From the NCBI GenBank assembly GCA_945861435.1, contig CAMAUX010000003.1:62001-126000 (forward strand): 64,000 nucleotides of DNA, in the 5' to 3' direction. The notes beneath the pieces were generated by a model. The model worked only from the letters and a program-made list of their open reading frames with translations. It was not told where the DNA came from and did no database searches. The DNA comes from Chthoniobacter flavus. Lineage in GTDB: Bacteria; Verrucomicrobiota; Verrucomicrobiia; Chthoniobacterales; Chthoniobacteraceae. Of this stretch, positions 36,360-64,000 are shown one piece after another (position 1 is the first letter of the stretch; the number at the start of each line of letters is the position of its first letter). The translations under genes and the position numbers were made by a program.

Positions 36360-36430
36360 GGGTGGTGCGCGGCGGGGCTGGATGGACAGTGCTGTGGCGA
36401 AGCGGTGCGGCGGTGCGGTGGCCGGTGGGT

Positions 36431-40170: not shown

Positions 40171-43100
40171 GTGATTTTTCCCCCTCAAGAATCCCGTGCC
40201 CGCTTGCGGACAGAGCGGCACTCACCCCTTTCAGTAGCTTCGGCCCTCCGTCGCAGGCCGCGGCCACTCGCTGTTTCGCTTGCGCGCTTTCTCAGTACGG
40301 GTGCGGTTTTGGCGGCGATGGGCATGGCGGTTGAGTCTGCGCACGGCGCCAATTTCGTTTGGGATCCGCTGGGCTTGGGGGCTGGCGGTTCGATGAGCGG
40401 CGGTACTTGGGTGCTTGGCGGTTCCAGCACCAACTGGCTTTCCGGCGGCACCTACCAAAACTGGGCGGACAACAACGCGGCGATTTTTGGCGGACCTTTT
40501 ACCCAGCCGACGACGGTGACCGTGGATTCCAACGTCAAGATCACCAGTCTGACCTTCAACACGGCGGGTTATACGATTGCGGCATCGGCTACCGGTGTGG
40601 TGCAGCTCAACCTTGGGGCTACGCCGATCGTGGTGAATGCGGACGCCGTCATGAGCGCGGGGATGAGCGGGGCCGGGGTTGGCTTCGCCAAGCAGGGAAC
40701 GGGGGCTCTGACTTTGAGCGGGGCGAGTTCATTCACCGGCACCACGCTTGTCAGCGCCGGCGTGCTGCAGGTCGGCGATGGAACCGGCAACGGTCGCTTG
40801 CTGGTTTCGAGTCCGATCACGATTTCCACCGGGGCCAATCTGAGGTTCAACGGTGCGGATATTACCACCGGTGCGTACACCGGGGCGCTTTCAGGGGATG
40901 GCACTCTGGAGGTGGTGGGCGGAGAGGTGCGGCTCAACGGGAATGGCAGCGCCTTCACGGGGCTCACTAAGGTCAGCGCGGGCACGATGCAGTTTGGCAA
41001 GGTGGCCGCGCTCTACGGTGGCGATTCTTCGAAATGGACCGAGGCGAACATCGTGGTGGAGAGCGGCGGCACTCTCGCGCTGAGTGTGGGCGGAACCGGC
41101 GATTTCAGTTCCGCGAACATCTCCGCGCTGGCTGCGACTGGGAGCGCCTCGGGCGGGTTCAAGAGCGGAGCGATTCTCGGTCTCAGCACTGCCACTTCGA
41201 TTGCGCCCAGCTTTAGCTTCGCCGGCGTGCTTGCGGATCCCAATGGTGGGGCGAATGCGCTGGGCCTTTCGAAGCTGGGTGCGAACACGCTCATCCTTTC
41301 CGGATTAAATACCTACACGGGTGTGACGACTGTGAAGGAAGGGGTGCTGCAGGTCGCTGGTCCCGGTGTTCTCTACGGCGGGCTCAACGGTTGGACGGCC
41401 TCCAAGGTGGTCGTCGAGAGTGGGGCGACCCTTTCCCTGCCCGTCGGAGGTGCGAGCGATTTCACCGCGGCGGATGTTGCTTTTGTCCTTCAGCGCCTTG
41501 GCGTCGATCCGGGCTCGGGTGGATTGCGGAGCGGTTCGTTGCTGGGCTTGGACACCACCAACGCGCCGGGCGGCACATTCACCCTGTCCGCGTCCTTCGC
41601 CGACGGCACGGGCGTGGGGGCCTCGCCTCTCGGGGTGAGCAAGCTGGGAACGGGATCCCTTGTGCTGACAGGCACCAGCACGTACTCGGGGCGCACCGTG
41701 GTTGGCGGGGGAACCCTTGAAGTGGGCAGTGGAGGGACTTCCGGCAGCATCCTCAACACGAGCGAAGTGAACCTAGCGGCCGGTGCGGGGCTGAAGTTCA
41801 ACCGCACAGATTCGTACGGGGGCGCGCAGGCGTCCGTCATCAGCGGCGAGGGTTCGCTTGAGGTTGCCAAGGGGACGCTTTCGCTCACCGGTCTGAGCAC
41901 CTATTCCGGAACCACCAAAGTGGGGCAGGGGGCGACGCTGGTGATCAACAGTTTGTCCACCGGTGGCACGAGTGCCTTGGGAACCGGGACCCTGACTGGC
42001 GATGACATCATTCTCGACGGTGGCAAGGTGCAGTACAGCGGCACCGGATCTTCTAACTCGCGCAGGCTCACGGTCACCGAGAAGGGCGCAACCATCGAGT
42101 CCTCGGGGCGCGGGTCCCTCAGTATGAGCCTGCTGGAGGTGCTGTTCACGGGCAACGGGGACCGTATATTTACTCTCGGGGGGACGCGGGTTGGGAATCT
42201 CTCCGGTACGAGTGTGGGTGGGAACACGTTTTCTGGGGTCATCGGTGACAGCATTGTGCGTGATGGAAATGGCGATCCCATTCTGGATGCCTTCTTGAGC
42301 CCGACCGTTCTGGGCTCCACCCACCTTGTGAAGGAGGGTCCCGGTACTTGGGTGATCAACCCGCTCACAAACAGCACCTACTCGGGAACGACCCGGATCA
42401 ACGGCGGAACCCTCGTGGTTTCCACTCTGGACAGTTTCTTGTTTCAGGGAAGCAGCCTCGGCAGTTCCGATGCGACTGCGTCCAACCTCGTCATCAACGG
42501 CGGCACTCTCCGGATCCAAAAGGGTGCCGGTGCGTATGAGGAAACGGACCGCAGCTTTACCATTGGCCCGAATGGCGCGACCATCGACTCCGCGGACTCT
42601 GTTGCCCGGGTGTATTTCAACGGGTTGAATTTTGCCAACGACTACATCGACTTCGAAGGGGACACCGCCCACACGCTCACCCTGAAGGGCTATTCTCCGT
42701 CAAATAACCGGATGGAGCTGCAGATCACCGACTTCGGATCTTACAAGACCAGCCTGATCAAATCTGGCCCTAGAGTCTGGGAATTGAGCCGTAACAGAGT
42801 GGAGCCCATGACCTACACGGGCGACACTGTGGTGCAGGGCGGTATGCTGAGCCTGGACCTCAACGGGCTGAAAACTGGACGCACTCTGATCAGCACCTCC
42901 TCGCGGCTCGTTCTCGAGGGCGCCACGCTCTCCATCAGTGGGCAGGATAATTTGAGCCAGACGCAGGGGTTCGCTGGGGTGTTGCTTAAACCGGGCGCCT
43001 CCAACTATGTCGTCACCGTCAGCGGCACGAACGGGCGGTTGACGAACACCTTCGGAGCGATCTCACGACAGGTCGGAGCCACGCTGGACTTGGTTTACGA

Positions 43101-46100
43101 CCCGGCCAGCTCCTCCAAGATCACGCTCAACTCCACCCAGGCAAACCTTGGTACGACAGGGATCCTTGGCGCTTATGTCACCGTCAATGGTGCTGACTGG
43201 GCGGCTGTTTCCGCAGGCAAGATCGTTCCGCTGGCCACTGCCAGTTACACCAATGTCCTCTACGGAAATGCCATTCAGGACGGCGCGTCCACGAATGTGC
43301 GGATCAACGAGGTTCAGGCGGGCCGCTCTTCGGACGATGTTGTCCTCAACGGCTCGACGGTCCGTATCAACACCCTTCTTCAGAATTACTCAGGGGCCGG
43401 TGCCGCGGATGCCGTCGTGGATCTCGCCGGCGGCACCCTGCGCTTCAGCGGACTGGGCGGCGCCATGATAGGGCGTGACAAGAAGGGGCTCACGCTCGGC
43501 AAGTCGGTGAACCCCGGGGTGATCACCGCTGGAGACGCGGACAATCAGGCTGGAGAGCTTTTACTCAGCAATCTCAACGCCAACGGCGAGTTGTTCGTGG
43601 TCAACTCGCGCATTGCCAACAACGGTTCCGGTGCGCTCACCCTTGTGCTGCGTTCCGCGCCCACGCTGGATCAGAATTTCATCACCACGCCCGGAACGAT
43701 CATCCTCAACGGTGCCAACACTTTTTCCGGAGGCACCTACGTCAATGAAGGGTTCGTCCGGATCGCCAGTGGCAGTGCCTTGGGTTCGGGGCCCATCACC
43801 TTTGGTTCCGGCGGCAGCAGCATTCTGGCCGACAACCGGGCGGTGCAACGGATTGTGGGCATCGCCTCCACCAACACCACCACGCGCGACATTGCCAATG
43901 CGCTTGTGTTCAAGGGCGACACGATCATCGGGGATAAGGGCACCATCTTGGGCGTCGCAGGCACCGGGCTCCTGAACTTTAGCGGGACCGTGGACTTGGG
44001 AGGGGACACGCGTTTTCTGACCATCAACCCCGCCTACGTCAGCCTCTTTGGTGTGGTCTCCAACGGGGGTCTTGCCAAGGTCGGAACAGGAACTCTGGCG
44101 CTGCTGAACTCAGCCAACAACTTCAGCGGCAACCTCTATCTCAATGAGGGCAACCTTGATATCGTCCCGGGAGGGCTCGGCTCCGGGTTGGTCTTCCTGA
44201 ACGGGGGCGCTCTCAGCTCCCTTGCGAGCTTAAATGGTGCAGCGTCGGCGCGCTCGATTCAGAACGACGTCTCCGTCACTGGCGATTTCCAGATCGGCCG
44301 CGCCGGACTGGGGCAGGGCACGGATCTGGGAGGCTCATTTGACCTCAACGGCGTCACTGCTGCCACTCGGAAAATCACCGTCAGCACCACCGGCGTCCAG
44401 CAGCGGATCTCCGGATCCATCAATGGCGGCGGCTTCACCAAGGTGGGGCTCGGGGAGTTGATCATCTCGGGTTCCAACAACTTCGCCGACGGACTGGTCG
44501 TCGCTCAAGGCACGGTCCGGATTACGGGTACGGGCACCACAGGCCTCAATTACACCACCAATCTGGTCTCCATCCGTGGCGGCTTGAATGATGGCGAGAG
44601 CACGATGCTGGCGCTCTCCGGGCCGTCGAACTTCGGCTCTGCGCAGCCGCTGGCGCTCAACGGCGGCGGCGCGAGTCGCATGGCGATGCTCGCACTGGGC
44701 AGCGGATTTGCAGAGGGCACCGGCAACACCATCAACTTCGCTTCGAGCGGCGGCGGCCTCCAGAAAATCCAGCTCGCCAGTGGCCAGAACGCGGGCCTCC
44801 TCCTCGATGGCATCCGGTACGCCGATGACGTTGTTGGGCGCACCTATGGGGGAGGCGGTCTGCCGGGCGTGTGGCTTGGCGCCACTAAGGCCAACGGCGT
44901 CTTCACTGGAAGTGTGATCAGTCGCAATGCCAAAACCCCTGGGTTTGGCGGTGGCGCACCCTATCGGTTCGGCGGCGGTGGCGGAACGCTCACCATCGCT
45001 TCCACCAACGCCCTCACGGGGATCGGTCCGATTTTAGTGGGCTCTGACGGGGTTGCGAACCAAGGAGCTGCCGGCACCCTGTTTCTTCCTCAGTCCCAGA
45101 GCTACGCGGGCGAGGTGATTGTCGGCAACGGCGGCACGTTGGTCGTCGGTAAGGATGGCGCCTTCGGGTCCAAGGCCCAGTACACCTTCTCCTCGGTGAG
45201 CAGCCAGGAAGTGGTTGCCAAAGGGAACGCGTTCGCGGAGATCACTGGGATCAGCGATACCAGCAGCCTCACCACGGGCATGCTCGTGAGCGGCAGTGGC
45301 ATCGCGCCCGGCACCACCATCTCGAGCATCGTCATCGGCGGCCCCAGCCCCCGGGTTTTCCTCTCCAGTAAAACCACCGGCCCCGTTTCGAGCGTCACCT
45401 TCGGGCCCGCAACGGTCACTCTCAACTCCGGCACGCTGAACCTGCGCACCAGCGGCGTCTTCGGTCAGGTCGACTCCCAGTACGCCTCGCGCACCCTCCG
45501 CCTCACGGCCAATTCCACCCTCAACCTCGACAGCCTTGGCGGCGCAAACTACGCCACGCTCGAACTCGGGGGGATGATCTTCGCCGGGGGGCAAGGGTCG
45601 GTCGGTCGCACGCTCAGCCTCAACAGCGGCAGCAGCGGCTTGAACCAAAATCTCGAGCTCCGGGTGGTCGGCCCCACTTATCTCGAGGACACCAGCACCG
45701 GCGTCTCGCTCGTGGGTGGTGCGACGGGAACCACCCCGGATCCCATTACCTTTGTGTTGGACCCCGAAAGGGTCACCGTCACCGATACCAGCGGTCTCGC
45801 GGCAGGAATGGTGATCGTTGGCAAAAATATTCCAGCGGGGACAACGGTCGTGTCGGTCGATCCCAATCGCACCACCTTCACGATGAGCGCCGCAGCCACG
45901 GGAGTGGACGCCGGCCCTCTTTCCTTCCTCGCTGGCTCCACCGCCGGCTCCACTTTCACCATCAATGGCGGCGGCTCGAGCGCCAGCTTCCTGACCTTCG
46001 TCGGTCCTATCCTTCAGAACCAGCTCCTCACCTCGGTGGCGGCTCCGCGGTCGCTCACATTCTCACCAAGCAGCACCACAACCATCGTCCTCGGGGCTGA

Positions 46101-49100
46101 CAACCAGTATGGCGGCACCACCGCTGTCAACAGCGGCACCGTGGTTCTTGCGAATGCAGGAGCAGCCGGCATGGCGGGCAATGGCGTCTCTCTGGGAGGA
46201 GCCACTCTCGGCTTGCGTGCCGACGCATCCACCACCTTCGACTTTGGTACGCTCACCATCGGAGGTGCCGGCCGCGCTCTCAATGTCGGTCGACTCACCA
46301 AATCCGGGGTCGCCTCCACGCTTTCCTTCGACGCGATCACCACCACGACCACCGCTGATCTCACCATCACCGGTGAACGCGATGCCGCCTTCAAACTCAA
46401 CGGCGCCCTCACTCTGGGCGGTAATTTCAACCTCAATGTCCGCGGCGCACGGGCAGAGATCGGTGCGGTCTCTGGAACCTTCTCCCTCACCAAAGGCGAC
46501 ACCGGCCTCCTCGTCCTCAGCGGCGCGCGCACCCAAGGAACCTCTTTCATCAACCGGGGGACGGTCCTCGTCCGGCACGACAGTGGAGCGGGGGCTGCCG
46601 ATGTCTTTGGTACCGCACTCGATGTGAGCGCTGGTGGATCCTCCGGTCTCTTCCTCGCCGGTGCGCGTTCCTACGCCAGCGCCATCACCCTGAGCGGCAA
46701 CTCCGCGGCCAGCAACCAAGTCTTTGGCGGCATCGAAGCCGGGGCCAAGACCTTCGGGACGCTCACGATGACGGGCACGTCCGCGACCGTCACCAACAAG
46801 CTCTTTCTCACAGCGGAAGGCGGCGCGATCACCTTTGGCGGCGTCATCTCCCAAGGCACCGCCGGTACCACCGCGGGCCTCGAGGTGCAGGTGGGCAGCA
46901 CGGGCTCGGGCATCATCAATGGCAACCTCGGCTCGCCCGCGCTCGGCATCGGTACTGTCAACCTCACCGCCGCCAACACGTTCTCCGGTAACTTCACCCT
47001 CAATAGCGGCACCGCGGTCGGGACTGCAGTGCTCAGCACGCTCCTCGGCGGTCCGTTCGGCGTCGGCTCCACTCTCGTGCTGAACGGCGGCTCCCTCCAA
47101 CTCAATGGCGCCGCCACGGGAACCAAGGACACAGTATTCACCAACTCCTCACTTGCGCCCGCACTCAACGTGGCCGGTGGGGCGCGTGTCGGCATCGCCA
47201 ACGTCAACAACCAGCTCTTCACCCAATTCCGCGTCGGATCCCTCAACCGTGTCGGAGGCGGGACCCTGGTGCTCAGCCCCAATACGGACGACTTCGGCGC
47301 TGCGTCTCGCACCCGTTTCTCCGTTCAGAGCGCGCCAAGCGCCACCAACGGAATCCTCGCACCGTGGACTGTTCTGACTGCTGCTTCCGGCGGCGGTTCG
47401 GCGGCGGATTTCGCGGCCGTCAGCGTGAGCGATGTGCAGCGTTTCAGCGCCTACGTTGCCGATTCGGCTTCCAACACCTCCACCTCTGTCGTCGCTGACC
47501 CCACCGGACGCACCCTGGCGGCCAACCGCACCGCATACGCGCTCAAGCTCGGGGGCAGCCTCCTGCTCAACAATTTCACCTACAATCTCGGCGCCGCCTC
47601 CGGCAGTGCGATGACCGCCTTCGCAGGCCTGATCCTGAATGGCGGCGCTTCCATCAGCGGCGGCACCCTCCAGTTCGGTGCCACCGAGGTCGACCTCTAC
47701 AACGACTCCGCCTCCGCGATCTCCGCCAACCTCGTCGGCCGCCCGTATCTGGCAAGCGGCCTCACCAAGTTCGGCCCGGGTACTCTCACCCTTTCCGGGT
47801 CCAACGGCTATCGAGGGCCGACCTTTGTCAACGAGGGTGCCCTTGTCTTTGGCGGCACCAGCACGCTGCCGCGCTTCACAGAGGGTGGCACACTCAAGGC
47901 CAGCGCACTGACCATCGGCACCCTCGGCTCCGTCAACCTCGGCGGCAATTCCATGGAGGTTGCCTCCCTCGCCGGCAATTACGGCGCCGTGCTGACCTTC
48001 GGCGGCTCCAACTCCCTCATCGTCGGCCGCAGCAACGCCGCCACCACGTTCGCAGGCCAGATCTCCGCTGCTTCCGGAACCCTCACCAAGGTGGGTACGG
48101 GTCGCCTCATCCTCGACAACACCCGCGGCGACTCCACCGCCAACAGCCTTGCCTCTCTCAACGTGGACGAGGGCCAGGTCCGCCTCTACATCACCGACCA
48201 GTCCAGCGGCACCCCCTATACCGCCGCCAACTCCCTTCCTTCCGCCACCGCCATCAACCTGCGCGGCGGCTCGCTTGAGTTGTACTCCTCCGGCGACAAC
48301 AGCAGCTCTCAGCAGACTCTCACCGCCGGCTACAACATCACCGTCTCCGGTGGTAACAGCACCCTCAGCTCCGACCGCGCGGGGGCCTCTGAAAGCAACA
48401 AGCTCATCGAACTCGGCTCCCTCTCGCTCGGCCGCAACTCGCTTACCGTCAGCAACGGCAATTCCATCTTCGCCAAGTTCGCCGGCGCCACCACTCTCAC
48501 CAGCCCGGCTCTCATCATTGCCAACAGCGAGTTCGTCCTCGAAGGGCCGATCGGCGACGGCGGCTTGGGTTACACCCTCAACAAGACCGGTGGCAACGTC
48601 CTCTACCTCAACAGCCCCTCGAGCACCTACTCCGGCGGCACCATGGTCGCTGCGGGCACCCTCATTTTCGGAACCCGCGGCGGGGATCCCATCCGCTCCC
48701 CAGGCTCGACGTTCGTCCCGAACAGCCTCGCGAAGGCCGGCACCGGCGACATCTTCCTCCTCAACAGCGCCACCGTCCGCCTCAACGATTCCGGCAACCT
48801 CAACGCCGGCCAGAGCCTGCGTGTCATCAACACGTCCCTCGTCACGCCGCCCATCGTCGACATCCGCTCTGATAGGCCTCTCTCCAGCTATCGCATCTCC
48901 GCGGCCGGCTCCGGCGTTCTCGCCCTCGGCACCGGAAGCACCGGAGGTTCCACAGCCAACCCTGTGGGCATCTTCGCCAACCCCATCGACCTCGCCTCCC
49001 TCGGTGACGGCACATGGGGACTCTCCGCCAGTCAGGACACCATCTACACACCCACCGTCCTCGGACCGGGGGCGGGCAACAACTATCGATTCTACGGCAC

Positions 49101-55100: not shown

Positions 55101-55905
55101 AGGCAACTCCACCGCCGCCCGCGTCCTCAACAGCTCCACCGTCCCCGGCACCCTCACCGTCAATGGCGGCGGCACCTACACGGGCACCCTGCAGGGCAAC
55201 CTCGCCCTCTCCAAGGGCGGCTCGCAGACGCTGGCGCTTTCCGCCAATCACACCTACACCGGCGCTACCACCATCGAACAAGGCACCCTCTCCCTCAGCG
55301 GCAGCCTTTCCAAGACCGGCTCCGTCGAGATCCGCAATGGCGGCACCCTCGCTCTCGCCGCCTCCACAGTGCCCAGCTTCGACCGCATCAACGACGCAGC
55401 TTCCCTCACCATCCGCAATGGCGGCACCTTCGCCACCAACGGCCTCAGCGAAGGCGTCCCCACCTTCAACCAGTCCTCCGCCATGGGCGCCCTCTCCCTC
55501 GAGATCGGCGCAGCCATCGATTTCGGCACCGGCGCGCTGGGCAGCACCCTCTTCTTCCAAAGCCTCGCCTCCGTGGAGCAGGGGGGCACCATCACCATCC
55601 TCAACTGGACTGGCAGCCCCCTCCTCGACGACACGACCGCCACCAACGACCGTCTCCTCTTCAAAACCGCTCCCAGCTTCTCCCGCACCCAACTCGCCCA
55701 GATCCAGTTCAAGGACGACTCCGGGAACCTCTACCCCACGGGCGCCGCCCTCATCGACTACAGCGGTTACTCCGAACTCGTCCCCGTCCCGGAACCCTCC
55801 ACATGGATCCTCGGTGGCCTCGCACTCGGGCTCCTCGGTTACCGCCATCGCCGCCAACTCCTCCGAGCCCTCCGCTCCCAGGGTTCTCAGGACGCTGCCT
55901 CCTGA
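40171..55905 (+). CDS. Giant autotransporter-associated beta-strand-repeat protein with PEP-CTERM signal
   Basis: 5,244 residues from a GTG at 40171. A long N-terminus holds a hydrophobic export signal (LARFLSTGAVLAAMGMAVES, about residues 36-55). The first module reads NFVWDPLGLGAGG, GGTWVLGGSSTNWLSGGTY and NNAAIFGG, as in family members. The bulk is dozens of PATR (TIGR02601-type) repeats, e.g. SGASSFTGTTLVSAGVLQVG and GLNTYTGVTTVKEGVLQV, expected to form a long right-handed beta-helix. At least six copies of a second, about 60-residue module occur at 45.2-45.9, 49.9-50.2 and 51.1-51.7 kb. The C-terminus is PEP-CTERM: VPEPSTW (55786-55806), a hydrophobic span and a basic tail. Likely a surface adhesin or sheath protein anchored by exosortase/archaeosortase-type processing. 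No autotransporter beta-barrel is present. Base skew changes within it. Confidence 0.95.
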   Translation: MIFPPQESRARLRTERHSPLSVASALRRRPRPLAVSLARFLSTGAVLAAMGMAVESAHGANFVWDPLGLGAGGSMSGGTWVLGGSSTNWLSGGTYQNWADNNAAIFGGPFTQPTTVTVDSNVKITSLTFNTAGYTIAASATGVVQLNLGATPIVVNADAVMSAGMSGAGVGFAKQGTGALTLSGASSFTGTTLVSAGVLQVGDGTGNGRLLVSSPITISTGANLRFNGADITTGAYTGALSGDGTLEVVGGEVRLNGNGSAFTGLTKVSAGTMQFGKVAALYGGDSSKWTEANIVVESGGTLALSVGGTGDFSSANISALAATGSASGGFKSGAILGLSTATSIAPSFSFAGVLADPNGGANALGLSKLGANTLILSGLNTYTGVTTVKEGVLQVAGPGVLYGGLNGWTASKVVVESGATLSLPVGGASDFTAADVAFVLQRLGVDPGSGGLRSGSLLGLDTTNAPGGTFTLSASFADGTGVGASPLGVSKLGTGSLVLTGTSTYSGRTVVGGGTLEVGSGGTSGSILNTSEVNLAAGAGLKFNRTDSYGGAQASVISGEGSLEVAKGTLSLTGLSTYSGTTKVGQGATLVINSLSTGGTSALGTGTLTGDDIILDGGKVQYSGTGSSNSRRLTVTEKGATIESSGRGSLSMSLLEVLFTGNGDRIFTLGGTRVGNLSGTSVGGNTFSGVIGDSIVRDGNGDPILDAFLSPTVLGSTHLVKEGPGTWVINPLTNSTYSGTTRINGGTLVVSTLDSFLFQGSSLGSSDATASNLVINGGTLRIQKGAGAYEETDRSFTIGPNGATIDSADSVARVYFNGLNFANDYIDFEGDTAHTLTLKGYSPSNNRMELQITDFGSYKTSLIKSGPRVWELSRNRVEPMTYTGDTVVQGGMLSLDLNGLKTGRTLISTSSRLVLEGATLSISGQDNLSQTQGFAGVLLKPGASNYVVTVSGTNGRLTNTFGAISRQVGATLDLVYDPASSSKITLNSTQANLGTTGILGAYVTVNGADWAAVSAGKIVPLATASYTNVLYGNAIQDGASTNVRINEVQAGRSSDDVVLNGSTVRINTLLQNYSGAGAADAVVDLAGGTLRFSGLGGAMIGRDKKGLTLGKSVNPGVITAGDADNQAGELLLSNLNANGELFVVNSRIANNGSGALTLVLRSAPTLDQNFITTPGTIILNGANTFSGGTYVNEGFVRIASGSALGSGPITFGSGGSSILADNRAVQRIVGIASTNTTTRDIANALVFKGDTIIGDKGTILGVAGTGLLNFSGTVDLGGDTRFLTINPAYVSLFGVVSNGGLAKVGTGTLALLNSANNFSGNLYLNEGNLDIVPGGLGSGLVFLNGGALSSLASLNGAASARSIQNDVSVTGDFQIGRAGLGQGTDLGGSFDLNGVTAATRKITVSTTGVQQRISGSINGGGFTKVGLGELIISGSNNFADGLVVAQGTVRITGTGTTGLNYTTNLVSIRGGLNDGESTMLALSGPSNFGSAQPLALNGGGASRMAMLALGSGFAEGTGNTINFASSGGGLQKIQLASGQNAGLLLDGIRYADDVVGRTYGGGGLPGVWLGATKANGVFTGSVISRNAKTPGFGGGAPYRFGGGGGTLTIASTNALTGIGPILVGSDGVANQGAAGTLFLPQSQSYAGEVIVGNGGTLVVGKDGAFGSKAQYTFSSVSSQEVVAKGNAFAEITGISDTSSLTTGMLVSGSGIAPGTTISSIVIGGPSPRVFLSSKTTGPVSSVTFGPATVTLNSGTLNLRTSGVFGQVDSQYASRTLRLTANSTLNLDSLGGANYATLELGGMIFAGGQGSVGRTLSLNSGSSGLNQNLELRVVGPTYLEDTSTGVSLVGGATGTTPDPITFVLDPERVTVTDTSGLAAGMVIVGKNIPAGTTVVSVDPNRTTFTMSAAATGVDAGPLSFLAGSTAGSTFTINGGGSSASFLTFVGPILQNQLLTSVAAPRSLTFSPSSTTTIVLGADNQYGGTTAVNSGTVVLANAGAAGMAGNGVSLGGATLGLRADASTTFDFGTLTIGGAGRALNVGRLTKSGVASTLSFDAITTTTTADLTITGERDAAFKLNGALTLGGNFNLNVRGARAEIGAVSGTFSLTKGDTGLLVLSGARTQGTSFINRGTVLVRHDSGAGAADVFGTALDVSAGGSSGLFLAGARSYASAITLSGNSAASNQVFGGIEAGAKTFGTLTMTGTSATVTNKLFLTAEGGAITFGGVISQGTAGTTAGLEVQVGSTGSGIINGNLGSPALGIGTVNLTAANTFSGNFTLNSGTAVGTAVLSTLLGGPFGVGSTLVLNGGSLQLNGAATGTKDTVFTNSSLAPALNVAGGARVGIANVNNQLFTQFRVGSLNRVGGGTLVLSPNTDDFGAASRTRFSVQSAPSATNGILAPWTVLTAASGGGSAADFAAVSVSDVQRFSAYVADSASNTSTSVVADPTGRTLAANRTAYALKLGGSLLLNNFTYNLGAASGSAMTAFAGLILNGGASISGGTLQFGATEVDLYNDSASAISANLVGRPYLASGLTKFGPGTLTLSGSNGYRGPTFVNEGALVFGGTSTLPRFTEGGTLKASALTIGTLGSVNLGGNSMEVASLAGNYGAVLTFGGSNSLIVGRSNAATTFAGQISAASGTLTKVGTGRLILDNTRGDSTANSLASLNVDEGQVRLYITDQSSGTPYTAANSLPSATAINLRGGSLELYSSGDNSSSQQTLTAGYNITVSGGNSTLSSDRAGASESNKLIELGSLSLGRNSLTVSNGNSIFAKFAGATTLTSPALIIANSEFVLEGPIGDGGLGYTLNKTGGNVLYLNSPSSTYSGGTMVAAGTLIFGTRGGDPIRSPGSTFVPNSLAKAGTGDIFLLNSATVRLNDSGNLNAGQSLRVINTSLVTPPIVDIRSDRPLSSYRISAAGSGVLALGTGSTGGSTANPVGIFANPIDLASLGDGTWGLSASQDTIYTPTVLGPGAGNNYRFYGTSGATLVLQEANVLTGKAGLVVGRPLTDLGVAQGNMSVTVRLTLGQNLTGSTVIYRGNNRGGYTGRVDARGTIASTTIENYGRLEFNGNGRLTNDAGVQLGTFIARPGSSLRLSYDDDLAGFLVPTGLGASNAGTFLNKWQDSLPVVLDGSQLELANTPQLQNVETIGGITFGGGSEVRLERRGANGLPTLIVQGPLSRVGLGTLAIRTSDNDLLGLPGALGTVSAERLILGDTATLPARGSASGSVVNMVSPRFFNIGQMMFLDYDPAGTTGFSNASFFGATTTVTGGTGSTVITLTGNTVASLGLVAGMPVTGANIPIGATIASVNSAANTVTLSATPTATLTQVTFSGTNSSTFNNGGPTNGTAVLFHTTTAVTTVNAGADIWALRTDVGIAGVNPITIRSGGLATNNTNGLTIAAPLVFANNGTPVEADIWTNSGNNGLILTGAVSASNLTKNGLGRLVLAGASPSLTGQVQTNGGTLEVRGAPSLGAVTDVRLHGSYLNNDGTYQMPLLEIRSDGTSTATHPSTGFFNSTVTVAEGIPYAELYSDRYSAAGSNLTMSIRGLTVEGGGAAGTSLSLRNGNDYDITVDGATRLGLAGRTAPVSLNVQNNNGTNQVILAGPLLGGTPTVIKNGNGPLRLVNATPAATNTFAGTIVLNEGTLELANQITLAVTNSSGTTQLTGLPSTANFYNGMAVTGTNVGANSVLSSFDAAARTATLSVNSTAAVTSATFSPPSITLTGLVNTAGASTVAVSSAAGLSVGMIAVGNGIPIGATITGISGTTVTLSAPSSAAVSLTGITNTSGSSLLSGLSSVSNLAVGMTVTGDKVAANSTITAIDPIAKTVTLSAITTGAVTAASFVVPVSSASFTVANNQLIGPGSIIVNGNNGSRSMLRVVSDTNYFNPLSLDSNSLTVTGQTTLQFDRFSGNGAITHVLGGDRAVFTTQGSPNVLIGGSLSAIWQGRTVINDNPIFNIQGPSLQLGGGLLADSVTGQGRILKTGPNPLIFNSNAANTFSGGLDVFQGFVRAGTVNDTFGSGPIRIAPGTGLALMSSANLPATGPGSLTSYAVNSASHTILALRPNSNLTINSLATVTAMFPSLRMTGSSTQGALLANDGGGTNFFNWLNGSDLSTLGNGSWFIGSLNGNAEINGTAAIGAGSPIPGVTGGVYRFGGGGANVFFNPSSAASVLVNNGATPNRLLVGKPYALAGNGIVYFNGNINNTYSGGTTISRVRDGSGNFVSSQLNVRSGYSSKPLGTGRVDVYGTLSFEGNGAAVSNAGGNTNLFTFHPGARLLIDNNSGGAYSNPTGNTNGRWGDAEPISLNSSSLELIGNTTATSPYNVETVGALTFSGGSILRSAYSGSASTDLILNSITRAGTGSTLLLDHTSGKLGTAAGTGSIDRIKLTTVPSVANGLLGSNNMVSPFILSRADSQFLKYDATLGFQFVTQGTALTGYVATTTTPLSGTVNAALTNGIGILSYDSTSAATLGANLDLYALRTQGDINSSAESAFTQITIRSGGLTLYGGTARTIKADLIFGTAAAPAEALIHASSAGLTIDGQLTASSVTKFGTSTLTINQDQKSIAGAWNLNGGSLIVQTPGGLGTSSNPVNLNGSSGTASGLITNELRLNFNSGSPDELVFTSGKISTLENNQIRFQSANDRTARIAALDLKAVTPASSTLAIPGNLWLRVDGLRSRLNTGAMTLFADYNLHVDAGNYSTPGSTVAVAPDSISNGGLYNLSKTGDGVLLLGNNSNLTGARTFTVSEGAVKVLNNNSLGAAGFSTVVENGGVLDVGVSNFTPPSTVSLQPGAIERWSANNARPTGYTLGPGVHLQVAADQTGTAAYKLNGGSIMGYLPLDVDQQMVVATLGSNVSFELQGDSSVGQPYPAGTHVSTGTANQVTYDMGKANLMNSAIDPKYQGSFLRVMGNITAAAGLTTPPVLTKLGQDHVVLGGSNSGFDTTVREGTLFAGSTDTLPTDRTLSVVSDGAFDLNGFSVTVGALQGNSTAARVLNSSTVPGTLTVNGGGTYTGTLQGNLALSKGGSQTLALSANHTYTGATTIEQGTLSLSGSLSKTGSVEIRNGGTLALAASTVPSFDRINDAASLTIRNGGTFATNGLSEGVPTFNQSSAMGALSLEIGAAIDFGTGALGSTLFFQSLASVEQGGTITILNWTGSPLLDDTTATNDRLLFKTAPSFSRTQLAQIQFKDDSGNLYPTGAALIDYSGYSELVPVPEPSTWILGGLALGLLGYRHRRQLLRALRSQGSQDAAS
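55786..55905 (+). other. PEP-CTERM sorting signal of the giant protein
   Basis: The last 40 codons encode VPEPSTW, a membrane span (ILGGLALGLLGY) and a basic cluster (RHRRQLLRALRS). This is the tripartite PEP-CTERM signal recognised by exosortase (EpsH) systems of Gram-negative bacteria. No exosortase gene is visible in this window. Confidence 0.93.
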
Positions 55906-56032
55906 CGCCCTATCGGCTTCAAAATTCCACCCCGCAATCCGCGGCACCCGCTCACTTTCCAGTTGGCGTGCCCCCTCCTTTGGGGTAGGGAGCGAAACGC
56001 TTCCCTGAGGCTTCGTCCCCAAAACCCACCCC

Positions 56033-56707
56033 ATGCGCATCCTCGTCGTCGAAGATGACCCCAAGATCACCTCGTTCCTCGACGAGGGCTTTGCTCAAAG
56101 CGGCTTCTCCATCGACGCCGTCACCACCGCCGAAGCCGCATGGGAGCTCGCCTCCTCCACACGCTTCGACCTCGCCGTAGTCGACCTCATGCTCCCGGGG
56201 GCCGACGGCCTCTCCCTCGTCGAACGTCTCCGCTCCGAAGGAAACCCCATCCCCGTCATCGTCCTCAGCGCCAAACGCGCCGTCGAGGAACGCATCCGCT
56301 GCCTCGAACGCGGTGCCGATGACTTCGTCCCAAAACCCTTCGCCTTCGGCGAACTCCTCGCCCGCACCCAAGCCGTCGTCCGCCGCGTCCGCGGCTCCTC
56401 CGAGCAACGCACCCTCGCACTCGACGATCTCACCATGGATCTCTCCTCCCGCGAACTCTTCCTAGCGGGCGAACGCGTCGACCTCCAGCCTCGCGAATTC
56501 ATGCTCCTCGAGCATTTCCTCCGCAACCCCGGCCACCTCTTCTCCAAGGCCTACTTCCTCGAGCGTTTCTGGGGCTATAACGTCGACCCGCAGACCAACG
56601 TCATCGACGTCCTCGTCTGCAGGCTCCGCAAAAAAATCGAGAGGGAAGGGGCCCCCAAGCGCATCCACACCGTCCGAGGCGCGGGGTATGTCTACCGCTC
56701 GCAATAA
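56033..56707 (+). CDS. OmpR/PhoB-family response regulator
   Basis: 224 residues. Receiver domain with acidic pair ED/DD (residues 7-9), phospho-acceptor D51 in LAVVDLMLPGADG, and K101 in DDFVPKPF. The C-terminal winged helix (residues about 128-224) has LQPREFMLLEHFLRNPG and NVIDVLVCRLRKKIE, ending IHTVRGAGYVYRSQ. Closest in style to CusR/QseB-type regulators. It overlaps the histidine kinase gene by 20 bp, so the two are one translationally coupled pair. It lies 127 bp after the giant gene and is very C-rich on this strand. Confidence 0.96.
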   Translation: MRILVVEDDPKITSFLDEGFAQSGFSIDAVTTAEAAWELASSTRFDLAVVDLMLPGADGLSLVERLRSEGNPIPVIVLSAKRAVEERIRCLERGADDFVPKPFAFGELLARTQAVVRRVRGSSEQRTLALDDLTMDLSSRELFLAGERVDLQPREFMLLEHFLRNPGHLFSKAYFLERFWGYNVDPQTNVIDVLVCRLRKKIEREGAPKRIHTVRGAGYVYRSQ

Positions 56708-58217
56708 CCAGCCCGGCAGCCCTTCCGGCCGCCCGCCAGAACGCAAAAGTCCAGACCTTGCCCGCGGTACGTCCGCGGACGAACAGCCCCGTTCCGGCGA
56801 GGGCCCGGAGAGCCAGAGCCCGCTCTGGCGCAGCATCCCCGTCCGCCTCGCTGCCTGGCACACCCTCATCTATCTCACCGCCACCCTCGTCGTTTTCATC
56901 GCCGGTTACATGCTCCTCAGCCGCTGGGTCGATGAACAGGAGTCCCACCTCATCCAGCAGCGCCTCCACCAGTTCCGCCTCCAGTACGACCGCGACGGCC
57001 TCCGCGGCGTCCACGAAATGTGCCAGCAGCGCCTCCTGCGCACCTCCCGCACCTACTTCGTCCGCCTCCTCAACGATTCCGGCGAACAACTCTTCCAGCG
57101 CGACCCGCAGGATTGGGACGGCTTCCCCCTCGATTCCCTCCCCGCCAATCCCAAACCCGAACTCCGCTGGAACGAGGTCGACGGGCCGGACAACCTCCTC
57201 CTCCGCGTCGCCTCCCAGCGCACCAAGGACGGCGTCACCCTCCAAGTCGGTAAGACCCTCGAACTCCGCGACGAAATCCTCGGCCGCTTCCGCACCGCAT
57301 GGATCGGCATCGGCCTCTTCCTCGGTGCCGTGGGAGCCGCCGGCGGCGTCTACGCCACACGCCGCGCCCTCGCTCCCGTCGCCCAACTCACCGCCAACGC
57401 CCAAGCCATCATGGACACCGGCGACTTCTCCCGCCGCATCCGCGGTGCGCGCACCCGCGACGAACTCGACGAACTCGTCGGCTGCTTCAACGGCATGCTC
57501 GAAAAAATCGAGCGTCTCATCGCCGGCATGCGCGACGCCCTCGACAACGTCGCCCACGATCTCCGCACCCCCATGACTCGCCTCCGGCACAACGCGCTCC
57601 GGGCCGTCGAGGGCAACCTCGATCAACCCCAGTGCATCCATGCCCTCGGCGATTGCCTCGAGGAATCCGACCGCGTCCTCACCCTCCTCTCCAACCTCAT
57701 GGACATCGCCGAGGCCGAATCCGGCGCCCTCTCCTTCAAACGCCAGGAACTCTCCCTCCACCCCCTCGGGCTCAAAATCCTCGACCTCTATTCCGACCTC
57801 GCCGAGGAAAAACAAGTCGCCCTCCACGTCCACCTCCCCGAAGAACTCCGCGTCGACGGCGAGGAAATCCGCCTCTTCCGCGCCATCGCCAACCTCGTCG
57901 ACAACGCCCTCAAATACTCCGGCCCCGGCGGCTCCGTCCGCCTCACCGGTTCGCTCCGCTCCGGCACGGTCCATATCGAGGTCGCTGACCAGGGCTGCGG
58001 CATCCCTCAGGACGAACTCCCCCGCATCTGGGAACGCCTCTACCGCGTCGACCGCAGCCGCGACCTCAAGGGCCTCGGCCTCGGCCTCAGCCTCGTCAAA
58101 GCCATCGTCGAAGCCCATGGCGGCTCCGTCGGCGTGGTCAGCGAGTTTGGCAAAGGCTCCCGCTTTCTCCTTCAGTTCCCCGCGGCCTCCCGCCCGGCTC
58201 CCAAACCCGCCGCGTAG
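56688..58217 (+). CDS. Membrane sensor histidine kinase
   Basis: 509 residues. A polar N-terminus of about 50 residues, TM1 (57-78), a periplasmic sensor of about 125 residues, TM2 (204-224), a HAMP linker, and an H-box DNVAHDLRTPMTRLRHNAL with His290. ATPase motifs follow: NLVDNALKYSGPG (N-box), VADQGCGIPQDE (G1), and LGLGLSLVKAIVEAHGG (G2). CusS-like architecture. It phosphorylates the overlapping response regulator; the signal is unknown. It is 460 bp upstream of the second giant beta-repeat gene. Confidence 0.96.
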   Translation: MSTARNNQPGSPSGRPPERKSPDLARGTSADEQPRSGEGPESQSPLWRSIPVRLAAWHTLIYLTATLVVFIAGYMLLSRWVDEQESHLIQQRLHQFRLQYDRDGLRGVHEMCQQRLLRTSRTYFVRLLNDSGEQLFQRDPQDWDGFPLDSLPANPKPELRWNEVDGPDNLLLRVASQRTKDGVTLQVGKTLELRDEILGRFRTAWIGIGLFLGAVGAAGGVYATRRALAPVAQLTANAQAIMDTGDFSRRIRGARTRDELDELVGCFNGMLEKIERLIAGMRDALDNVAHDLRTPMTRLRHNALRAVEGNLDQPQCIHALGDCLEESDRVLTLLSNLMDIAEAESGALSFKRQELSLHPLGLKILDLYSDLAEEKQVALHVHLPEELRVDGEEIRLFRAIANLVDNALKYSGPGGSVRLTGSLRSGTVHIEVADQGCGIPQDELPRIWERLYRVDRSRDLKGLGLGLSLVKAIVEAHGGSVGVVSEFGKGSRFLLQFPAASRPAPKPAA

Positions 58218-58677
58218 GCGCCCCTCTGTCCTTGCCGCTCGCTGCTGTGCGCACTGCCTTCAGCCGCCCTCCACCAAAATCGGCGTCTGCCTCCTCCTGA
58301 CCCCTCCGGGGCCGGTGCGCTTCAGCGCGTCCACCGCGTCCACCGCGTCCACCGCGTCCATCGGCATCCCGCGGCGAGGAAAAGGACGGCGTATAAATTG
58401 GTCCCGCGAGGGGGCGTTTTCCGCAGAGAAGCAGCAGGTATGCCACGGTGGTTTGTGAAGTATTTTCACCCAGCTTTCGCAGGTGTCTTTTTATTTTTAA
58501 TTCACACGAGATTTTGCGGCTTTTAGCTGGGGTGCAGGTCGGCATCGTTATATATGAGGAAAGGCTTGCTGATGATTTTCTTCCGCTCCCTCCGCTCCTG
58601 CCACGTTTCCACTGATTCCCCCTAAGGACCGGCGCAAGGATTCACCGCCTCGTGTTGGCTTTTCATACATCCCCTCG
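58218..58677. other. 460-bp region upstream of the second giant gene
   Basis: No gene. It contains four 9-bp repeats (58327-58362). An AT-rich stretch (about 58460-58560), with TTATATAT near 58548 as a possible -10 without a convincing -35, probably holds the giant gene's promoter. The ATG at 58678 is preceded by TCATACATCCCCTCG, with no SD. The AT-rich patch resembles the one before the first giant gene (40090-40165). Confidence 0.5.
58327..58362. repeat. Four tandem copies of a 9-bp unit (GCGTCCACC)
   Basis: GCGTCCACC occurs three times exactly, and once as GCGTCCATC, in uninterrupted tandem array. It is non-coding in context; on the minus strand it would read as repeated VDA. Such short arrays are prone to length change. 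Confidence 0.9.
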
Positions 58678-61600
58678 ATGAACAAAAAATCCTCCCGCAT
58701 CCCACGGCTGGACGCCTCCTCAGGCCTCCTGCGCGCGCCCTTCCGTTTGCCGCGCAGAAAAGCCGCGCTCCCGCGTCCACGCAGGATCTTCAGCCCGCTC
58801 GGCATCTCCCTCTCCAGCTGCGCTTCCGCTCTCGCTCTCTGCGGCGCACTGTTTTCCGGCACAGGCGCGGCCAAGGCCGCAACGCTCTACTGGGACTCGG
58901 ATTCTATCGGCATCAACAACACCCTCTCCGGCGGCGGACTCGGTGGTCTGGGCACGTGGGGCACCTCGGCGAACCAGTGGTGGAACGGCGCCGCGAGCCT
59001 TTCCAATCAGGCGTGGAATAATTCCAACAACGACACCGCAGTGTTCTGGGGCACGGCCGGCACCGTTACCCTTGGCACCGGCATCACCGTGGGCGGGCTG
59101 CAATTCAACACCACTGGTTACACGCTGGGTGTCGCGGGCAACACGCTCACCTTCGGCGCCAACTCCAACGTCACTCTCAACAACATCGCTGCGACCACCA
59201 TCGCTGCGAACATCGCCGGCTCGGGGAGTCTGAACATCAACGGCGGCGCCTTCGCCGGTCTCACGGCCGGAACCCTGACCATGACTGGCACGGGCTCCAG
59301 CTTCACCGGCGGAGTGACCATCGGCAACTCCATGACCGTCACCCTCTCGGGCACGACGAACACCGCCTTCTCCAACCTCTCCTCCGGTCTCACGCTCAAC
59401 ACCGGGAGCAACCTCAACATCGTCAACACCACGACGGACACGGCGCTCACCCACGTCAACGCCGCTGCGGCGATCACCGGCAACGGCGGCACCATCAGCT
59501 ACACGAACACGGCGGGCGCCATCAATTACGCCATGTCGCTGGGTGCCTACACGGCTGCCTCCGGCCAGAACGTCATCATCTCCACCAACGCCACCAACGC
59601 GGGCAGCACGGAGGTGCTCACCCTCGCCTCCCTTGCGCAGTCGGGCACCGGCACCCTCGCGCTCGTGGGCGGTGGCGGCCTCAACACGGCGACCAACCAG
59701 ATGGTCGTCACGGGCGCTTCCGGAGCCACCGCCGCAAACCAGATCATCGCGCCGTGGCTCACCACCGGCACGGCGGCTGGCACGCAGTCGGATTACGCCG
59801 TGTACAATGCCAGCAAGCAGGTGGTGGGGGTGGGAACCCTCACGGCCCTGCCCGTCACCGGCGCGGCGTTACAGGCCTACCAGTTGGCCGGCGCGCAGAC
59901 GCAGACCGGCACCAGCAACATCACCGCGCTCAAGTTCACCGGTGCGGCGACAACGTTCACCCTGGCCTCGGGCGCGAACCTTGGCACCACGGGCATCCTG
60001 AACGCCGGCACCGGTGCCCTCACCATTGCACCCGGCACCGGCGGTGTGGTGACCCTCCCTTCCACCACCTCCGCGAATCTCTACCTGAACACCGGCATCA
60101 ATCAGGGCATCATCATTCAAGGCCCCATCAATGACAACGGAGCGGGTGTCCTCACCCTCGTCGTCAGCGGGCCCAACACCGTCACGTTGAACCTGACGGG
60201 CACGAGCACTTTCAGCGGCGGAACGGTCGTCAACAGCGGCACGTTCAGGATCAACGGCGACGGCAATCTCGGCGCGGCGACAGGCGGCCTCTCCTTCAAC
60301 GGCAACGCCGGTTTCAACCTTCAGGCCGCGATGACCATCGGCACGGTGGGCACGCCCGCCAACCGCGCCATCTCCCTGAACAACGGGGCCATCGCCACCG
60401 TCACCACCAACGCATTCAACCACTCCCTCATCGGGAATATCTCCGGCACCGGTGGGATCAGCCTCTCGGGCACCAGCGGCAACACATTCACCCTCGGCCA
60501 GAGCGGGTCCACCAGCACCTACACGGGGCCCACCCAGATCTCCTCAGGCACCCTCAAGGCGGGGGTGACCAACGCATTCGGTTCCAACTCCGCGATGGTC
60601 CTCGCCAACACCGCGGGCGTCGTGCTCGACATCACCGGATTCGACACCGCCATCGGCTCCCTCTCCGGTGCCGGCCCCACGGGTGGAACCATCACACTCG
60701 GCACCAACACCCTCACCGTCGGCGGCAACAACGAAAGCACCACCTTCGCCGGCGTCATCGGCACGGGCAGCACCGCCGGCGTTCTCACCAAGACCGGCTC
60801 CGGCATTCTGACCCTCACAGGAACCAACCTCTACACCGGCGGCACGAACATCAACGGCGGCCTGATCAACATCACCTCCCTCGCCAATCTCGGCACTGCC
60901 GGCATCGCCTTCAACGGCGGCGGCGTCCAGTTCGCTTCGCCTGGAGTGGACCCTTCCGCGCGCACGCTCACATTCACCGGTGCCGCCGTCATCGACACCA
61001 ACAACAACCAGATCATCTTTGCCAACCCCGTCGGCAACAACGGCGCGGGTGGCATCACCAAAAACGGCGTCGGCACCCTCGTGCTTCAAGGAGCCAACAC
61101 CAACACCGGTGGAGCCATCGTCAATGCCGGCGTGCTCAGCCTTCAGAACGCCCAGGCCCTTGGCACCGGAAGCACCGGCACGATCGTCGTCAACTCCGGC
61201 GCCACACTCGCTCTCCAATCCTCCAGCGGCACCCCGAGTTTCGGCTCCAAGGCTCTCTCCCTCAGTGGCACCGGCTCCCTCGCTGGCCAGTCCGGCGCGC
61301 TCGTCAACGTCGCCGGCACCAACACCTACGCGGGCACGCTTTCCCTCAGCGCCAACGCCACCATCTCCTCCGACGCAGGCTCGCTCACCCTCAGCGACAC
61401 CAGCGCCATCACCGGCTCCGGATTCACCCTCACCCTTGCCGGCGCCAGCAGCGGCACCCTCGCGGGCGCGCTCCAGACCGGGGCAGGGGGACTCGTGAAA
61501 ACCGGTTCCGGCACGTGGACACTTTCCTCCACCACGGCCAACTTCACCGGCCCCACCAGTATCACCGGCGGCACCCTCAGTATCGTCGGCGGCGCGCTCG

Positions 61601-64000
61601 GTTCGACCTCCGGCACCACCCTTGGCGGCGGCATCCTCAACCTCACCAGCGGCAGTCAGAACGCGGGCGCTCTCACCCTCGCGGCTGGCACCTCCAACAC
61701 GGTCATCGTCGGCTCCGGTGCAGCGCTCACCACGGGCGCATTCTCCCGCAGCACCGGCGGCCTCGTCGCCTTCGACACCTCCGCCGGCGGCTCCCTGCCG
61801 ACTTCCGCCACCGGCTCCGGCGCCAACAACCTGCTCGGTTACGCCACGATCACCGACTCCACCGGCACCGGCATCGCGCAGGTGAGCGGCGGCAGTATCG
61901 TGCGCTTTGCTCCCTCCTCCTCCGCCTCCGTGCTGGCGGACAACAGCAACAGCGCCACCACCGACTTCACCACCGCCGGCATGGCCGCAAACCCGCTTGC
62001 ATGGAGCAACGGCATCACCGCGCGCTCCGTCAATTCGCTCACCTTCGACACCGCCTCCGGCGCGCAGACCGTGAATCTCGGCGCCTCCGGCAACGTGCTC
62101 ACCCTCGCGAGCGGCGCCCTCCAGCTCATCGGCTCGGCGAATGGCACCCTCACCGGCGGCCAGCTCGGCGCCAGTGGATCCGAGGTCTTCGTGCATCAGA
62201 ACGGCACGGGCTCCCTGCTTGTGCAAAGCCCCGTGAGCGGCGGCGCGGGATCACTCACAAAGCGCGGCACCGGCACCCTGCAACTCTCCGGTGCCAGCAC
62301 CTACACGGGCGCCACCATCATCAACGGCGGCACAGTGAAGGCCGGTTCCTCCAGCCTGTTCACCATCGCCACGGTCGACAGCACAAACAGCGCGGGATAC
62401 CTCACCTCCGCCGGTGGTCCGCTGGGAGTCGGTTCCGCGGTCACTCTGGCCAACGTCTCGGGTGCGGCCCTCGATCTCAATGGCTTCAGTGTCGCCATCG
62501 GCTCCCTTTCCGGCGGCGGCACCACGGGCGGCAATCTTCTGCTGGGAAGCGGCGGCACCCTCATCGTGGGCGGCGGCGATCTGATCAACAACGTCGGAGC
62601 CGCGAACATCGGCACCACCTTCGGCGGCATCATCTCCGGCACCGGCAATCTCACCATCGCCGGCGGCGGCAGTCTCACCCTCACGAACAGCTCCAGTAGT
62701 TTCTCCGGTCAGGTCAACGTCAACAGCGGCACCTTGGTTCTCAGTGGCAATCTGCCTGTGAACACCAACAGCCTGCTGGGCAACAGCAATGCGGTGATCG
62801 CGGTCAACGGCATCTCCTCCACGCAGGGCCTGCCCGGCGGCACGCTTGTCATCCAAGGCGGGCTCGGAGTCACGGGCGTCACCATCGACCGCAGCATCAG
62901 CATCTCCGGTCGTGGGAACAACACCGTCGGTGGTGCGCTCATCAATATCGGCAACAACACCTACAACGGCTTCATCACCACCTCCAACAGCTCGGAAACC
63001 CGCGTCGGCTCGGTTGCGGGCACCTGGACCTTGGGCAATGCCGGCCAGCTCTATCTCGGCACCACAAACACCTCCTTCTACCCCACCATCGGTGTGGGTA
63101 ACATCGTCCTCAACGGCATCGTCGGCGGGGGCGCGGTCGGCGCCTATGCCCTCCAGGTGGCGAAGTCCGGCCTGCTCGACAAGACGCTCCTGCTCAACAA
63201 TTACACCAACAATCAGATCGGGGACATCCGCCTCGATAGCGGCACCATCCGCATCTCCAACGGCGGAGCGATCGGAGCCACGACCTCGACCAATGCGCTG
63301 CGCGGCACCGCCGGCACCTTTGAAATTCGCACGGACGCAGGCTCCAGCTTCAGCACCAAGAGCTTCAGTCAGGCGGACGGGAATCAGGGGATCTTGGTGG
63401 ACCGCGCCGTGGGCGGTGCAGGTCTCAATCAGACCGTGACGTTCGGCAACTTGAATCAGGGCAACAACAGATCCCTGACGTTCAGCGGGCGCAATGGCAC
63501 CAACCTCACCTTCGCCGCCATGATTGGCAACGGAAACGGGAACAACGCGGAATCCTTCACCGTCAACCTCAACGGCACCCTGACTTTCACCGGGGACATC
63601 TGGGGAGAAGGGAACAATGCTCAGACGCTGACGATCACCTCCACGGGTGCGACCGTTCTCACGGGCAACATCACCGCCAGCGCCACCACCTCTGCCGCAA
63701 GCTTCACCAAGGCGGGCACCGGCCCGATGACGATCGGTGGCACGGCGGGCACCTTCAACGGCAATGCCAACGTCAACGCCGGCACGCTCAATATCAGTGA
63801 CATCGGGGCCCTGAATGCAACGAGCACAAGCGCCACCGGGGGCAATCAGGCCGGCGTTGTCGTCTTCGGCGGCGGCACCCTGAACTACACCGGGGCCGGG
63901 CAGACATGGACCAACAAGGTGCTGCTGCTCAATGCCACCAACGCCATCCTCACCAGTAACGGCACCGGTGTGCTTGTCCTGCCGAAGAACGTCTCCACCA
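58678..64000 (+). CDS. Second giant autotransporter-associated beta-strand-repeat protein (3' part outside window)
   Basis: The frame from the ATG at 58678 (MNKKSSRIPRLDASSG) is open to the right edge: at least 1,774 residues, no stop seen. A basic N-terminus is followed by a hydrophobic export segment (SLSSCASALALCGALFSG) ending near AAKA. The first mature module, ATLYWDSDSIG to NNSNNDTAVFWG, parallels the first module of the upstream giant protein. PATR repeats follow, e.g. LTGTSTFSGGTVVNSGTFRI, LTGTNLYTGGTNINGGLINI and GASTYTGATIINGGTVKAG. It is a probable surface adhesin or sheath protein. Whether it ends in PEP-CTERM or an autotransporter barrel cannot be seen. Confidence 0.93.
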   Translation, partial: MNKKSSRIPRLDASSGLLRAPFRLPRRKAALPRPRRIFSPLGISLSSCASALALCGALFSGTGAAKAATLYWDSDSIGINNTLSGGGLGGLGTWGTSANQWWNGAASLSNQAWNNSNNDTAVFWGTAGTVTLGTGITVGGLQFNTTGYTLGVAGNTLTFGANSNVTLNNIAATTIAANIAGSGSLNINGGAFAGLTAGTLTMTGTGSSFTGGVTIGNSMTVTLSGTTNTAFSNLSSGLTLNTGSNLNIVNTTTDTALTHVNAAAAITGNGGTISYTNTAGAINYAMSLGAYTAASGQNVIISTNATNAGSTEVLTLASLAQSGTGTLALVGGGGLNTATNQMVVTGASGATAANQIIAPWLTTGTAAGTQSDYAVYNASKQVVGVGTLTALPVTGAALQAYQLAGAQTQTGTSNITALKFTGAATTFTLASGANLGTTGILNAGTGALTIAPGTGGVVTLPSTTSANLYLNTGINQGIIIQGPINDNGAGVLTLVVSGPNTVTLNLTGTSTFSGGTVVNSGTFRINGDGNLGAATGGLSFNGNAGFNLQAAMTIGTVGTPANRAISLNNGAIATVTTNAFNHSLIGNISGTGGISLSGTSGNTFTLGQSGSTSTYTGPTQISSGTLKAGVTNAFGSNSAMVLANTAGVVLDITGFDTAIGSLSGAGPTGGTITLGTNTLTVGGNNESTTFAGVIGTGSTAGVLTKTGSGILTLTGTNLYTGGTNINGGLINITSLANLGTAGIAFNGGGVQFASPGVDPSARTLTFTGAAVIDTNNNQIIFANPVGNNGAGGITKNGVGTLVLQGANTNTGGAIVNAGVLSLQNAQALGTGSTGTIVVNSGATLALQSSSGTPSFGSKALSLSGTGSLAGQSGALVNVAGTNTYAGTLSLSANATISSDAGSLTLSDTSAITGSGFTLTLAGASSGTLAGALQTGAGGLVKTGSGTWTLSSTTANFTGPTSITGGTLSIVGGALGSTSGTTLGGGILNLTSGSQNAGALTLAAGTSNTVIVGSGAALTTGAFSRSTGGLVAFDTSAGGSLPTSATGSGANNLLGYATITDSTGTGIAQVSGGSIVRFAPSSSASVLADNSNSATTDFTTAGMAANPLAWSNGITARSVNSLTFDTASGAQTVNLGASGNVLTLASGALQLIGSANGTLTGGQLGASGSEVFVHQNGTGSLLVQSPVSGGAGSLTKRGTGTLQLSGASTYTGATIINGGTVKAGSSSLFTIATVDSTNSAGYLTSAGGPLGVGSAVTLANVSGAALDLNGFSVAIGSLSGGGTTGGNLLLGSGGTLIVGGGDLINNVGAANIGTTFGGIISGTGNLTIAGGGSLTLTNSSSSFSGQVNVNSGTLVLSGNLPVNTNSLLGNSNAVIAVNGISSTQGLPGGTLVIQGGLGVTGVTIDRSISISGRGNNTVGGALINIGNNTYNGFITTSNSSETRVGSVAGTWTLGNAGQLYLGTTNTSFYPTIGVGNIVLNGIVGGGAVGAYALQVAKSGLLDKTLLLNNYTNNQIGDIRLDSGTIRISNGGAIGATTSTNALRGTAGTFEIRTDAGSSFSTKSFSQADGNQGILVDRAVGGAGLNQTVTFGNLNQGNNRSLTFSGRNGTNLTFAAMIGNGNGNNAESFTVNLNGTLTFTGDIWGEGNNAQTLTITSTGATVLTGNITASATTSAASFTKAGTGPMTIGGTAGTFNGNANVNAGTLNISDIGALNATSTSATGGNQAGVVVFGGGTLNYTGAGQTWTNKVLLLNATNAILTSNGTGVLVLPKNVST

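Follow-up and report, generated by a model that had tools for sequence, protein, structure and literature searches.

The window analyzed here is a 64,000-nucleotide stretch (positions 62,001 to 126,000 of contig C3) of a 5.35-Mb genome in 105 contigs, 96% complete, from the family of Chthoniobacter flavus. Along its plus strand lie the gene for a giant repeat protein (giant A; 40171 to 55905), an OmpR-type response regulator (56033 to 56707), a sensor kinase (56688 to 58217), and the 5′ part of a second giant gene (giant B; 58678 to 64000). Giant A is a PATR repeat protein of 5,244 residues that matches PF12951 with 127 bits over residues 1 to 4276 (cut-off 27), contains 23 PATR units according to an HMM built in this analysis, and carries a PEP-CTERM sorting signal (55783 to 55854; PF07589, 32.2 bits against a cut-off of 20.7). 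The first-pass annotation had described this PEP-CTERM protein, and also a regulator and kinase between two giants on one strand, and in both respects it was correct. It had also recognized a second repeat protein of at least 1,774 residues; this is indeed a PATR gene starting at 58678, but its size must be corrected to at least 10,301 residues, the frame running on beyond the window and being still open at the end of contig C3. Giant B scores 83 bits against PF12951 (cut-off 27) and has 45 PATR units by the same HMM over its at least 10,301 residues; its C terminus lies beyond the contig end, and statements on PEP-CTERM cover giant A only. The interval between the kinase gene and giant B includes a perfect 9-bp tandem repeat of CGCGTCCAC in 3.9 copies (58326 to 58360). 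Adjoining giant A on the minus strand (33390 to 40006) are PSD1/PSCyt, DUF1501, and FGGY sugar-kinase genes; conserved synteny of this upstream group was considered and rejected, as only 25–38% matches to these very common families were found.

Giant A opens with an extended, Arg/Pro-rich signal peptide region of about 60 residues (40171 to 40350, read from the sequence), which is 42% identical (E 1.3e-8) to that of C18a, one of two giants on contig C18. A W-D...T-W...NW...AxF module follows (40351 to 40620), defined by an alignment of seven giants in which W31, W50, A58, and F60 (giant B numbering) are invariant. Giant B has an extended signal peptide region of 67 residues with a SSGLLRAPFRLPRR motif (58678 to 58878), which is 87% identical to the region in the giant of contig C8 and 56% to that in C18a. 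No C-terminal β-barrel (PF03797 or TIGR01414) was detected in giant A, for which the last 1,301 residues were searched with NCBIfam and the first 4,276 with Pfam. Given its PEP-CTERM signal, giant A is probably processed by an exosortase, and the genome has two exosortase genes (PF09721). Structure models of giant B residues 64 to 420 and giant A residues 146 to 592 were of low confidence (pLDDT 51 and 60, respectively). The former was too poor for any fold match; the latter, the best part of which reaches pLDDT 70–84, gave no Foldseek E value below 0.27, and the best matches to this low-confidence model are nearly all β-helices, headed by a tapirin-like adhesin (Z 12.1 over 141 residues, 2.9 Å), with pertactin and the IcsA passenger at Z 10–11. 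Together with the PEP-CTERM signal and the two exosortases, these matches suggest that the likeliest product of giant A is a long β-helical rod attached to the cell surface.

The N-terminal modules of giants A and B are alike, as originally reported, but the likeness is common to a whole paralogue family, within which giant B is the poorest match to giant A. At least six genes of the genome encode giants (3,380 residues or more); besides A and B, these are C18a (9,058 residues), C18b (at least 3,380), and those of contigs C8 (at least 7,537) and C28 (at least 7,344). Counted with a 2,441-residue gene on contig C4, in which a single weak PATR unit occurs, they account for about 2.5% of the genome's DNA. 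In BLAST searches with the first 260 residues of giant A, giant B (E = 4.9e-8) is the weakest of five paralogue matches, behind C18a (1.8e-21), C8 (4e-12), C18b (4e-10), and C9 (2.7e-9), whereas the N terminus of giant B matches C8 (1e-110) and C18a (7e-52) far better than it matches giant A. The alignment proposed as a check on the pairing thus went against it: the two are not each other's best partners, giant B aligning with C8 and giant A with C18a. Moreover, the giant of contig C8 is a mosaic twin of giant B, with protein identities of 58–78% across blocks of about 1,950 residues and DNA blocks of 73–91% identity; the terminal 149 bp are identical in contigs C3 and C8, and this accounts for the breaks in the assembly. 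A status of recent duplicates or of a special pair is ruled out for A and B, because A matches B worst of the five and the twin of B is C8. Both the N-terminal module and the long signal region rich in Arg and Pro recur in several of the giants and in other genomes of the family, where PATR matches occur in 39 of 40 genomes and frames reach 10,747 residues, so that the giants themselves are ordinary for this family. The C28 giant (43438 to 65471; L047/L048) has a different N terminus, few PATR units, and little of the skew ramp described below, and C18a contains near-identical 75-residue tandem PATR units (C18 79439 to 79978; about 9439 to 9978 of L010).

Both giant genes of the window are preceded by AT-rich DNA, as had been noted, but the patches lie in different places and are shared with other giants. 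That before giant A (40091 to 40150; 72% AT) is a possible promoter near −80, and that before giant B (58453 to 58512; 65% AT) lies near −225 and may be a promoter with a long leader; C8, C18a, and C18b have such a patch near −220 to −260. The lack of a Shine–Dalgarno sequence before either start is not distinctive, since among 114 long ORFs just 18 show an SD-like tetramer at the 5′-most start (a crude start call). Similarity between the regions upstream of A and B is no better than that of shuffled sequences, with 57 of 60 shuffles scoring as well. The proposal of common control does not hold for these two giants as a pair. A regulator motif had been expected in both AT-rich patches; these share no motif beyond chance and contain no box of the degP type described below. 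A motif common to the upstream regions of A, B, and the regulator gene was rejected, nothing rising above shuffles, as were σ54-like sites before A and B, which occur at chance level. A palindrome, CATTAACAG-N9-CTGTTAATG, some 180 nt upstream of the C8 giant is a possible operator (L044 about 14700 to 14760; C8 near 109750).

The gap between giant A and the regulator gene (55906 to 56032) lacks a plus-strand terminator-like site, an AT-rich patch, and a degP-type box. Base composition at fourfold-degenerate sites also bears on the transcript structure. Within giant A the GC skew falls from 0.06 at the 5′ end to −0.82 at the 3′ end (Spearman −0.98), C rising from 35% to 82% and G dropping from 40% to 8%; the kinase gene continues at −0.79 to −0.90, and at giant B the value jumps to −0.36. 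Giants C8, C18a, C18b, and B show the ramp as well (−0.61 to −0.75), the skew returns to about 0 in the small genes between C18a and C18b, and in ordinary genes the mean change from the first to the last third is only −0.07. A replication terminus inside giant A is unlikely as the cause of the switch, because giants on three contigs have the ramp. The run-on of skew from giant A into the kinase gene and the jump at giant B look as if giant A, the regulator, and the kinase were one unit and giant B another, and the first three genes may form one transcript, with B transcribed separately.

The regulator consists of a receiver and a Trans_reg_C output domain (PF00072 and PF00486), and the kinase has a HAMP-HisKA-HATPase architecture. 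The label CusS-like given to the kinase holds insofar as the CusR/CusS heavy-metal subfamily is the best-scoring family for both proteins, yet both fall below the curated cut-offs (198.1 against 279.2 for TIGR01387 and 219.6 against 292.55 for TIGR01386). In a kinase tree, the window protein groups with those of C. flavus (G016), G001, G019, and G025 (98/97), forming a long branch inside the Chthoniobacteraceae clade, and the recognition part of its regulator is well conserved. A close kinase occurs in 23 of 213 genomes of the order. At 13 Verrucomicrobia loci (nine in family f8, one in G039 from the family of the window genome, and three in named Verrucomicrobia), a DegP/HtrA gene encoding a Trypsin_2 and two PDZ domains lies directly 5′ of the regulator gene on the same strand; in five Spirochaetes, degP instead comes after the kinase gene. 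The window pair is homologous to these DegP-linked pairs and has the same order, regulator then kinase, with about 50% (regulator) and 36–43% (kinase) identity to the Verrucomicrobiota members, but it has no adjoining degP. Giant A occupies that slot, and the DegP homologues of the genome are on contigs C24 and C77. Sixteen loci of the order were examined, several of them on short contigs, and no PATR gene lies near any of them.

All 14 degP upstream regions examined contain TGTAAT, followed in all 13 complete sites by GnAAG at a fixed spacing, which defines a box TGTAAT-N8-GnAAG located 43–86 nt before the called degP start. The scoring matrix was trained on these same sites, and cross-validation between two groups of sites was uneven, the matrix crossing poorly from one to the other. 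At L206 and L208, two degP genes stand in tandem before the regulator–kinase pair, each with its own box. In the window there is no box before giant A, the regulator, or giant B, the best scores lying below −2, and the 5.35-Mb genome offers six pattern matches and no convincing promoter box. The highest-scoring of these (17.3, on contig C12) was rejected, as genes of the opposite strand account better for this stretch.

The neighborhood of the pair in C. flavus (G016, contig NZ_ABVL01000032) bears on the gene-order comparison that the first-pass annotation had called for. There, the gene immediately upstream of the regulator encodes a 1,500-residue PATR autotransporter with a C-terminal barrel, and the kinase is followed on one strand by a DUF6941 gene, genes B, C, and A of a Verru_Chthon cassette, and a PATR giant. 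Cassette genes B, C, and A, the last of them split in two frames, score above the NCBIfam cut-offs (TIGR02598, TIGR02599, and TIGR02600), and the giant, of 7,481 residues and with a giant B-like N terminus, lies about 6.7 kb downstream of the pair on the same strand. Only seven matches to the box pattern occur in the 7.8 Mb of C. flavus, two of which stand 635 nt apart just after the kinase gene, one before the DUF6941 gene (score 15.5) and the other, with a score of 20.4, 70 nt ahead of cassette gene B. As a rough estimate rather than a formal test, the chance of this arrangement is on the order of 1%. In the window genome, a full cassette (B, C, A) occurs just once, 7.6 kb before the C8 giant, which, together with the C. 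flavus order, suggests that pair, cassette, and giant belong to a partly shared, shuffled neighborhood. C. flavus thus repeats the order of PATR gene, pair, and giant, but three other genomes keep the pair without giants: in G001, of the same genus, it is far from any PATR gene, with no giant within about 28 kb on either side, and in G019 and G025 it is on short contigs with no giant nearby. The linkage between the pair and PATR giants is only suggestive, because it is seen in two genomes in both of which PATR genes are abundant; the link may have been inherited from a shared ancestor, or the pair may have come to lie near giants twice, independently, in genomes rich in them. Regulation by the pair is plausible in C. 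flavus and, for giants A and B of the window, no more than a possibility.

Our preferred explanation, to which as a whole we give a probability of about one half, is that A and B belong to an expanded family of giant surface proteins that are Sec-exported and form β-helices, that a formerly DegP-associated pair now lies among PATR genes, and that giant A, regulator, and kinase are cotranscribed. The ancestral pair would have been a regulator and kinase of the envelope-stress type, with periplasmic DegP/HtrA as its common neighbor and probable target; it would have become separated from degP in the Chthoniobacteraceae, to be found now among PATR exoprotein genes in the window genome and in C. 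flavus. In the latter, the box before the pseudopilin-like Verru_Chthon cassette run, which ends in a giant, suggests that the pair most likely switches this run on, presumably through direct binding and with an envelope signal as kinase input. In the window, the pair would probably be read through from the giant A promoter, with B on a transcript of its own. A more ambitious version, which we regard as unlikely, is one of regulatory capture, in which the former DegP envelope-stress pair has been rewired in the Chthoniobacteraceae to control the giants and the cassette and, in the window genome, is carried on the transcript of a 15.7-kb giant gene, so that the sensor would be made only once the giant that it monitors has been transcribed.

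It is also quite possible that common, clustered PATR giants simply happen to flank an unrelated pair and that A and B are separately controlled. The near-universal presence of PATR genes in the family, the adjacent C18 giants with no such pair beside them, the other neighbors of the pair in G001, G019, and G025, the lack of PATR genes near the 16 order loci, and the shuffle-level similarity of the A and B upstream regions are all consistent with such a coincidence; it accounts less readily for C. flavus, where a PATR gene upstream and a giant downstream recur on the same strand and a box precedes the cassette–giant run. The model first proposed for the window, in which the two giants serve as alternative adhesins or sheath layers and are directly controlled by the pair, draws on position, the single strand, and the AT-rich upstream patches. 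We consider it improbable, given that A and B share no upstream motif, that their patches lie at different distances, and that the true partner of B, the C8 giant, has no such pair beside it.

The locus can be compared with several known systems. Verrucomicrobiota PATR proteins (PF12951/TIGR02601) of the PEP-CTERM type resemble A and B in repeats, signal peptide, the PEP-CTERM of A, and exosortases, but A and B differ in size, in the extended Arg/Pro-rich signal peptide, and in having many paralogues. Classical type V autotransporters have a barrel, as does the C. flavus neighbor, whereas giant A has PEP-CTERM instead. Compared with the DegP/HtrA-linked pairs of Verrucomicrobiota and Spirochaetota, the window locus retains the regulator-then-kinase order, has giant A in place of degP, and lacks the box; the Verru_Chthon cassette, which in C. 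flavus stands between pair and giant, is absent from the window itself. PrsK/PrsR and the window pair are both regulator–kinase systems in a PEP-CTERM genome, but PrsR is of the σ54 type and the output of the window regulator is OmpR-type. PrsK/PrsR is listed as a PEP-CTERM-associated two-component system in the study that first found PEP-CTERM in Verrucomicrobium spinosum, a species with 65 of them (PMC1569441). Apilactobacillus kunkeei has adjacent giant extracellular proteins, Giant1–5, with predicted β-solenoid domains and recombination between paralogues (PMC12863079); they differ in being Gram-positive, unrelated in sequence, and devoid of PEP-CTERM.

For proteins as long as 5,000 to more than 10,000 residues, the means by which bacteria regulate export and control its quality are largely an open question. 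That an envelope-stress pair accompanies PATR exoproteins in two genomes, and that a candidate box precedes the cassette–giant run of C. flavus, is worth a second look: a sensor pair whose usual partner is DegP, positioned beside giant exoproteins and with its candidate box before that run in a cultured organism, provides a testable handle. The arrangement may represent a stress sensor that has been re-used for giant surface proteins.
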